Origin: Nitrospirota bacterium
GTDB taxonomy: Bacteria > JACPQY01
Assembly (NCBI GenBank): GCA_016190245.1
Contig: JACPQY010000005.1
Coordinates: forward strand, 1-13,629
Reading direction: 5' to 3'
Length of the DNA stretch: 13,629 bases
Under the pieces are notes generated by a model. It made no database searches and was not told where the DNA came from. It saw nothing but the letters and a program-made list of their open reading frames with translations. The translations under genes were made by a program, and so were the position numbers. Below, in pieces: positions 10,481 through 13,629 of the stretch (position 1 is the stretch's first letter; the number at the start of each line of letters is the position of its first letter).

Positions 10481-10563
10481 ATCGGCCGTCAGCCTCTAAT
10501 GCCGCTCGATGATTGATTTCGGTCATATCGCAGAATCTAATGTGGAGCCACCCTATCCAGGAC

Positions 10564-12063
10564 ATGGTGGCTTTGTTGGAACGGGAATTGCTCTTGGGAG
10601 AGGTTGGAGACTTGGCAACCAAGAGACCGTTCAAGGGTGGTGCCGGATCGAAACGAGACGAAGGTTCCGGATTCCGGGTGTTGATTGCCGAAGATGAGCC
10701 TTCCCTCCGGCTGACCCTTTCGGATTACCTGAGCGACCTCGGTTTCGTTGTAGACAGCGCAGCCGACGGCACGCAAGCCCAACTCAAGCTCCGATCTCAA
10801 TTCTACAATCTGGCGATATTGGATATCCGCCTGCCGAAGGTGGACGGTCTCACGTTGTTCCGTCAAATCAAGCAGGACGGCCGAGGCACGGAGGTGATTC
10901 TCATGACCGCGTTCGCCTCGGTGGTCGACGCCGTGCAGGCCGTCAAACAGGGTGCTTACGACTATCTCACCAAGCCCTTCGACCGCGATGAGCTTCTCAT
11001 CCGAGTCCGGCGAGTCCAGGAGGAGAGCCGACTTCGTGCCGAACTCCAGGAAGCCCGGCGGCGCCTGAGTGAACTGGATGCTTCGCGCAGGATCCTGGGC
11101 GGCTCGCCGCGAATGCTCACTCTCCTGGATCAAGTGGGCGTCGTGGCGGCCTCCGAATCCAACGTCCTGATCATGGGAGAAACGGGGGTGGGAAAGGAAT
11201 TGCTGGCGAGGGAAGTTCACCGGCTCAGTTCGCGCGAAGCCAAGCCCTTCGTGGCCGTGAACTGCGCCGCTTTTCCAGAAACCCTCCTCGAGGCGGAGCT
11301 CTTCGGATACGAAAAAGGCGCCTTCACCGGCGCCGTGAAGAGGCGCGACGGGAGGTTCAAGGCCGCGGACAGGGGCACCCTGCTCCTGGATGACGTGTCG
11401 GAGATACCTCTTCCGGCGCAAGCCAAGCTTCTCCGCGTCATCCAAGAGGGGACCTTCGAACCTCTCGGGACCAATGCAAGCGTTCAAGTAGATGTTCGGA
11501 TCATTTCCACCACCAACGTAGACCTCCTCCAGCGAGGCAAGGAGGGCCGCTTCCGGGAGGATCTCTATTACCGGCTGAATGTGGTCGGCTTGGAGGTGCC
11601 TCCTCTCCGGGATCGGAAAGACGACATCCCGATCCTCGCCGCCGCCTTCCTCGGGCGACTGGCGTCAAGACAGGGTTCAACCCGGCAAGACATTGCGCCG
11701 GCGGCGTGGGCGGCCCTCACCTCCTACGCCTGGCCCGGCAATGTCAGAGAACTTGAACACGCGATCGAACACGCCTCCATCCTGGCCCGCGGCGGTGAGA
11801 TTGACGCCGCGCACCTTCCCGAAGCGGTTCGCGGCACTAGCTCGAACACCTTGCTCTCGGATCACATGGCGCCGGGATCGCGCGGTTTGGAGGACGCCTT
11901 GAAATCGTTCGAACGCGAGTACCTTTCCAGAACTCTGCAGTCCACGGGATGGCGCAGGCAGGAGACCGCCGACTTGCTCGGCATCTCGCGCAAGACGCTC
12001 TGGGAGAAACTGCGCGAGCACGGGCTGAATCCACCGGCCGAAGAAGAGGAAAAGGATGAGTAA
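10564..12063 (+). CDS. Sigma-54-dependent response regulator, NtrC family
   Basis: This is an activator of sigma-54 RNA polymerase with three domains; residue numbers are from ATG 10564. The receiver domain is at about 37-155, with the acidic pair in AEDEP, phospho-acceptor Asp87 in LAILDIRLP, Thr115 and Lys137. The AAA+ domain is at about 176-400, with Walker A GETGVGKE, ELFGYEKGAFTGAVKR (the sigma-54-contacting GAFTGA loop), Walker B GTLLLDD (Asp-Asp instead of the usual Asp-Glu), and FREDLYYRLNV with the arginine finger. The C-terminal Fis-type helix-turn-helix is RRQETADLLGISRKTLWEKL. The start is unsure: the frame is open from TTG 10513 and ATG 10540; TTG 10612 has the best-placed GGAGAGG; GTG 10678 would begin right at the receiver. 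The stop TAA is supplied by the end of the inserted element. Its partner kinase follows. Confidence 0.93.
   Translation: MVALLERELLLGEVGDLATKRPFKGGAGSKRDEGSGFRVLIAEDEPSLRLTLSDYLSDLGFVVDSAADGTQAQLKLRSQFYNLAILDIRLPKVDGLTLFRQIKQDGRGTEVILMTAFASVVDAVQAVKQGAYDYLTKPFDRDELLIRVRRVQEESRLRAELQEARRRLSELDASRRILGGSPRMLTLLDQVGVVAASESNVLIMGETGVGKELLAREVHRLSSREAKPFVAVNCAAFPETLLEAELFGYEKGAFTGAVKRRDGRFKAADRGTLLLDDVSEIPLPAQAKLLRVIQEGTFEPLGTNASVQVDVRIISTTNVDLLQRGKEGRFREDLYYRLNVVGLEVPPLRDRKDDIPILAAAFLGRLASRQGSTRQDIAPAAWAALTSYAWPGNVRELEHAIEHASILARGGEIDAAHLPEAVRGTSSNTLLSDHMAPGSRGLEDALKSFEREYLSRTLQSTGWRRQETADLLGISRKTLWEKLREHGLNPPAEEEEKDE
12052..12059. repeat. Target-site duplication, left copy (AAGGATGA)
   Basis: AAGGATGA directly abuts the left terminal inverted repeat of the 114-bp element and is repeated perfectly at 12174-12181. 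Here it lies within the last codons of the response regulator. Confidence 0.85.
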
Positions 12064-12173
12064 GCGTTCAGCGGTCAGCAATCAGCCTCGGATACAGAGG
12101 CAACCGTGCATGGCGGAACTTCCAAGGCCTTGTCTGGAAGCTGAAAGCTGAGCGCTGATGGCTGAACGCTTAC
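12060..12173. mobile_element. 114-bp MITE-like non-autonomous element, IS66-type ends
   Basis: Perfect 13-bp terminal inverted repeats are GTAAGCGTTCAGC (12060-12072) and GCTGAACGCTTAC (12161-12173). Similarity continues inward as NNTCAGC heptamers: three on the left, four on the right in inverted sense, with only the two N bases differing. A second hairpin, CTTCCA...TGGAAG, lies in the centre (about 12119-12140). The element is flanked by a perfect 8-bp direct repeat AAGGATGA. It has no coding capacity and would need a transposase supplied elsewhere. Ends starting GTAA plus 8-bp duplications are, from general knowledge, features of the IS66 family. The family assignment is inference, since no IS66 genes are in the window. 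It separates the response regulator from its kinase. Confidence 0.85.
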
Positions 12174-12177
12174 AAGG

Positions 12178-13629
<1,452 letters not shown>

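Follow-up and report, generated by a model that had tools for sequence, protein, structure and literature searches.

The window analysed here, a stretch of 13,629 nt from the Nitrospirota contig JACPQY010000005.1, closes with a regulator-kinase gene pair. The upstream gene (10513-12063, forward strand) was identified from the ORF listing and Pfam as an NtrC-type response regulator with a receiver domain (Response_reg), a sigma-54 AAA+ domain (Sigma54_activat), and a Fis-type HTH_8 domain, and its product ends in ...EEKDE before a TAA at 12061-12063. The downstream gene (12178-13629, forward strand) was assigned to a sensor histidine kinase from the ORF listing, Pfam, and its match in a related genome, and encodes an N-terminal hydrophobic region, a PAS domain, a HisKA domain, and the beginning of HATPase_c. 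The source genome (G000, 85% complete) was compared with G001 (97% complete), which belongs to the same family and another genus and is the sole relative; the phylum search covered two genomes only. A sequence-only reading of this locus had proposed that both genes were kept alive. This stands for the regulator, whose ORF is intact, but not for the whole kinase, whose sequence breaks off with the contig at residue 484, about 68 C-terminal residues short of its 552-aa orthologue in G001. The missing part was not found on the other contigs of the assembly, and outside the window only 28-46% paralogues were found. Against G001, dN/dS was about 0.14/0.68 for the kinase and 0.12/0.49 for the regulator. 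This shows purifying selection on both genes across the whole divergence, a signal that is not assignable to the time after the insertion described below.

Between the two genes lies a MITE-like element of 114 nt (12060-12173, no strand assigned), which has the ends GTAAGCG...CGCTTAC and arms made of the heptamers NNTCAGC/GCTGANN. Arm comparison delimits a left terminal inverted repeat (12060-12086, forward strand) and a right one (12147-12173, reverse strand), the two arms being imperfect (85% complementary over 27 nt). As had been read from the letters, the element is flanked twice by the same 8-bp sequence, AAGGATGA, at 12052-12059 and at 12174-12181 (no strand assigned). Both copies are flush with the element, and the right one holds the present kinase ATG (12178-12180). 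When flanking repeats were searched from -14 to +6 around each hairpin end, the repeat of this element fell at offset 0,0, and an 8/8 match anywhere in the searched flanks was seen in 0.37% of cross-paired flanks (41 hairpins). Because it is an 8/8 match and flush, against this low background, the repeat is not attributed to chance. The proposal that a strongly self-pairing RNA segment separates the two cistrons is likewise borne out, the element strand folding at -60.4 kcal/mol, whereas its shuffles average -39.6 (z = -6.1) and none of 200 folded as well.

All six frames of the element contain stops. With its 7-nt period, GCTGANN brings TGA into every frame over three heptamers, as does the inverted arm for the opposite strand. 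The longest coding content noted is a 31-codon ORF, and there is no transposase capacity. Rfam gave no family match for the element, no promoter or terminator consensus was detected in it, and it was found neither in viral contigs (exact pattern) nor in plasmids. An intrinsic terminator was considered and rejected: the U-run is missing, no 8-nt stretch near the right end of the element holding more than 2 T, and there was no terminator match.

When the element and one repeat are left out, the regulator reads ...KDETSRQKR and stops at a TAG at 12201-12203. The former gene overlap, from the kinase ATG to this ex-regulator TAG (12178-12203, forward strand), thus measures 26 nt, and the codon arithmetic of the pre-insertion junction that had been predicted holds. 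In G001, contig C52 carries the orthologous regulator-kinase pair without the element, its kinase being 79% identical across all 484 residues. Alignment of the two junctions leaves a single 122-nt gap, the length of the 114-nt element and one 8-nt repeat combined. The G001 junction reads GAA GAG GAT GAA GCT CCC CGG CAG GAC GGA TAG, so that its regulator tail is EDEAPRQDG* where the joined flanks of G000 give ...KDETSRQKR, and the stop lies in the same place. The ATG...TAG gene overlap of G001, ATGAAGCTCCCCGGCAGGACGGATAG, is again 26 nt long. In this one relative the spacer is therefore absent and the empty site shows the forecast overlap. A search of the genome contigs with the regulator gave relatives at 37-46% only, which is too far for the junctions to be compared.

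The effect on the regulator is also as had been proposed. Its stop now comes from the terminal GTAA of the element (TAA 12061-12063), and the six-residue tail TSRQKR is absent. These residues lie beyond the HTH domain, and their loss was probably harmless. The 8-bp duplication, the 122-nt difference from G001, and the multi-copy family described below together uphold a mobile insertion at the regulator/kinase junction. It is practically certain that a MITE inserted into the regulator-kinase overlap and duplicated 8 bp that hold the kinase start, with the borders given in the earlier reading.

The assignment to MITEs agrees with the properties of the element: it is short, non-coding for a transposase, and bounded by terminal inverted repeats; its family has multiple copies in both genomes, few of them with intact ends plus a duplication; and an empty site exists in a relative, G001, the only one compared. 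The duplication is of fixed length and differs by site. Besides AAGGATGA, the copy at C50:14131-14251 of G000 has TCGCGCCG on both sides and that at C25:4179-4305 has CACTGAGG, all three being 8/8 and flush, while a copy on C8 of G001 has a 7/8 flanking repeat. The C25 copy shares only the terminal ~11 nt (GTAAGCGTTCA ends) with the others, its interior being an unrelated CCCCAACCC/GGGGAGGGG hairpin. Judging from this different interior, the C25 copy suggests that only the ends may be needed for mobility. The gene upstream of the C25 copy had only a 34% relative in G001, so that empty-site comparison was uninformative. On C24 of G001 (113694 region), a GTAAGCG...CGCTTAC element supplies the TAA of the upstream gene (...KELLKELK-TAA); a gene resembling tsaD (MLTLGIETSCDET, identified by eye) follows immediately, and the element has no remaining duplication. 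This upstream gene had only a 29% relative in G000, at a locus without the gene that follows in G001, and the comparison was again uninformative.

The ends point to a particular parentage. For IS66-family elements, ends with GTAAGCG that span 20-30 bp are reported along with 8-bp repeats (PMC11946415), the latter also documented in PMC3281130, and the end of ISPsko1, GTAAGCGTCCGGCGAACTCACCTT, likewise contains GTAAGCG (PMC12888890). The element at 12060-12173 shares with this family the inverted ends beginning 5'-GTAAGCG and the 8-bp target duplication. It differs in that it is 114 nt long and has no genes, in that its interior heptamer repeats are those of no known IS66 end, and in that one of its copies (C25) has a quite different interior. 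Neither a full-length partner with matching ends nor a transposase was found in the host: the IS66 transposase PF03050 and TnpB PF05717 had no match in G000 or G001, with several control genomes matched. Because no IS66 transposase was found, the parentage is recorded as IS66-like ends rather than as a proven IS66 derivative; the ends are IS66-like, and we infer that the element may descend from an IS66 member.

A covariance model built from eight copies and run on both genomes found a wider family of hairpins with the same heptamer arms, NNTCAGC/GCTGANN, with about a dozen members in G000 and some thirty in G001. All six frames are closed in 21 of 40 hairpin copies, compared with 17.5% of shuffles. 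With genes called by a simple codon-based finder, 29 of 40 hairpins abut a gene stop codon (within 10 nt), and a hairpin lies within 10 nt on 35 of 48 sides facing a gene 3' end versus 8 of 32 facing a 5' end (Fisher p = 3e-5); with crude gene calls and hairpin borders taken from the model, these counts are a lead. Family hairpins commonly take up the entire space separating two genes, and some have T-runs at their ends and resemble bidirectional terminators. Most of the 41 hairpins examined for 8-bp duplications were no different from the cross-paired null, and most had no GTAAGCG ends. Since most match this null, the wider family cannot be called MITEs on duplication evidence. Other heptamer-like tandem runs (GTGAGCAGTAAGCAGT..., GTTCACTGCTTACTGCTCACTG...) occur on C10, C38, C45, C76, and C79 of G000, some of them apparently inside or beside coding regions.

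Two other origins for the hairpin have to be weighed against insertion of a MITE. The hairpin could be an ancestral functional intercistronic RNA, either a regulatory leader or an mRNA stabiliser, that was precisely deleted in the relative. Its strong fold and the related hairpins at many gene ends would suit such a role, and precise excision could also leave one AAGGATGA copy. However, in G001 the two genes overlap compactly and the Shine-Dalgarno sequence is well spaced, the duplications are flush and different from site to site, and Rfam recognised no family, so that this origin is extremely improbable. A REP/REPIN-type palindrome moved by a REP-associated tyrosine (Y1/HUH) transposase would likewise be short, intergenic, and multi-copy, and the heptamer arms are in keeping with it. 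Flush 8-bp target duplications are, however, expected of DDE transposases and not of HUH enzymes; REP/REPIN elements are defined by having no target duplication, whereas flush 8-bp duplications are present at three sites here, and the ends are GTAAGCG inverted repeats. This origin too is very improbable, and the insertion of a MITE with IS66-like ends is preferred.

Several known MITEs resemble this one in part. The Chunjie MITE of Geobacter uraniireducens also lies in an operon and is multi-copy with terminal inverted repeats and direct repeats, according to PMC10969869, which cites Chen et al. (2008), a paper whose title says that the operon structure was undisturbed by the MITE. Sequence and host differ, and the present element sits within a gene overlap, where it has displaced a ribosome-binding site. 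ERIC, Correia elements, and QMITE2 are likewise hairpin MITEs, located in operons or at the 3' ends of genes, and ERIC and Correia elements can alter mRNA levels via RNase E or RNase III cleavage (PMC10969869); the element described here is unrelated to them in sequence. The 113-bp MITEAba12 also has stops in all six frames and can truncate the 3' end of a gene (PMC6382973). It is related to ISAba12 and is not IS66-like; hns was disrupted and a second gene truncated where it inserted, compared with the loss of only a six-residue tail here.

The insertion also changed the surroundings of the kinase start. The putative ancestral Shine-Dalgarno sequence of the kinase, GAAGAAGAGG (12040-12049, forward strand), has an AAGAGG core identical in G001 and now lies upstream of the insert. 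In G001 and in the joined flanks alike, AAGAGG stands six nt before the ATG, and the best anti-SD duplex reaches -6.0 kcal/mol. With the element present, AAGAGG is 122 nt further upstream of the kinase ATG than before, and nothing better than -1.5 kcal/mol is found at a spacing of 4-12 from this ATG. The earlier claim that the duplicated target rebuilt AAGG-ATG for the kinase thus fails, as AAGG touches the present ATG with a spacing of 0 and AAGAGG stays on the regulator side. A predicted 31-codon ORF, MSKRSAVSNQPRIQRQPCMAELPRPCLEAES (12056-12151, forward strand), starts at the duplicated ATG and runs through most of the element to a TGA at 12149-12151, which leaves 26 nt up to the kinase ATG. 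The kinase ATG has a predicted accessibility of 0.64 in the filled state, 0.04 in the joined flanks, and 0.35 in G001.

Before the insertion, the kinase would have been translated from a Shine-Dalgarno sequence inside the last codons of the regulator and coupled to it. The insertion left this Shine-Dalgarno sequence with the upstream ATG copy (12056), which now opens the 31-codon ORF and may be translated from there. The kinase start itself lies 122 nt further on, past a hairpin of -60 kcal/mol, and lacks a spaced Shine-Dalgarno sequence of its own. Any kinase still made might depend on ribosomes re-initiating once they leave the short ORF, or on a folded hairpin that sets the upstream AAGG close to the ATG. 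Few genes in the window have an obvious Shine-Dalgarno sequence at their listed starts (judged by eye, with starts uncertain), and the cost of losing one may therefore be smaller than in model bacteria. A strong effect on the kinase is less supported, because accessibility of the ATG in the filled state is no worse and many genes lack a Shine-Dalgarno sequence. On balance, we lean slightly towards translation of the kinase being weakened or uncoupled, with a lower kinase:regulator ratio.

The insert could instead be silent, the kinase having an independent start or promoter and unchanged expression. Many window genes without an obvious Shine-Dalgarno sequence (by eye) would fit this, and the lineage may often use leaderless or unstructured initiation. 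Against it, no promoter consensus was detected near the junction, and the conservation of AAGAGG in G001 suggests its use; a silent insert is accordingly doubtful, though it deserves some weight. Another reading turns the hairpin into a switch: when folded, it would let the upstream AAGG/AGAGG serve the kinase ATG, so that the kinase would still be made, in amounts that depend on how stable the hairpin is. Counting the hairpin as zero length, AAGG (12052-12055) would lie 8 nt and GAGG (12046-12049) 14 nt from the kinase ATG, and genes 38 and 25 of phage T4 use the same arrangement, an RNA stem between Shine-Dalgarno sequence and start codon that reduces the distances to 5 and 11 nt (PMC3014915). 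The T4 stems are, however, short, evolved, and experimentally supported, whereas the split site here is a possibility and its 114-nt branched stem is far larger. Ribosomes translating the regulator also reach as far as 12063 and so enter the stem by its first base pairs. Such a switch is unlikely, and so, to the same degree, is the fuller version in which the target duplication copied AAGG-ATG and placed the hairpin inside a split ribosome-binding site. There the upstream copy would retain the Shine-Dalgarno sequence and start a short ORF across the element, the kinase would depend on whether the hairpin is folded or translated, and the MITE would have turned simple translational coupling into a kinase gene controlled by a leader ORF or by a hairpin. 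Displacement of the Shine-Dalgarno sequence by the MITE remains the preferred reading, and the account as a whole, comprising the insertion of a MITE with IS66-type ends, the displaced Shine-Dalgarno sequence, probable uncoupling, and a lower kinase:regulator ratio, is likely to be correct.

The insertion of a MITE is already a known kind of event, but the before/after evidence in this case is unusually clean, the overlap being kept in one natural relative and split by a mobile hairpin in G000. IS66-type ends have apparently been mobile in genomes where an IS66 transposase was not found, and the hairpins with the same heptamer arms at gene 3' ends point to a lineage-wide habit. The G000/G001 pair permits a direct test of the effect of a MITE on translational coupling and on the kinase:regulator ratio.
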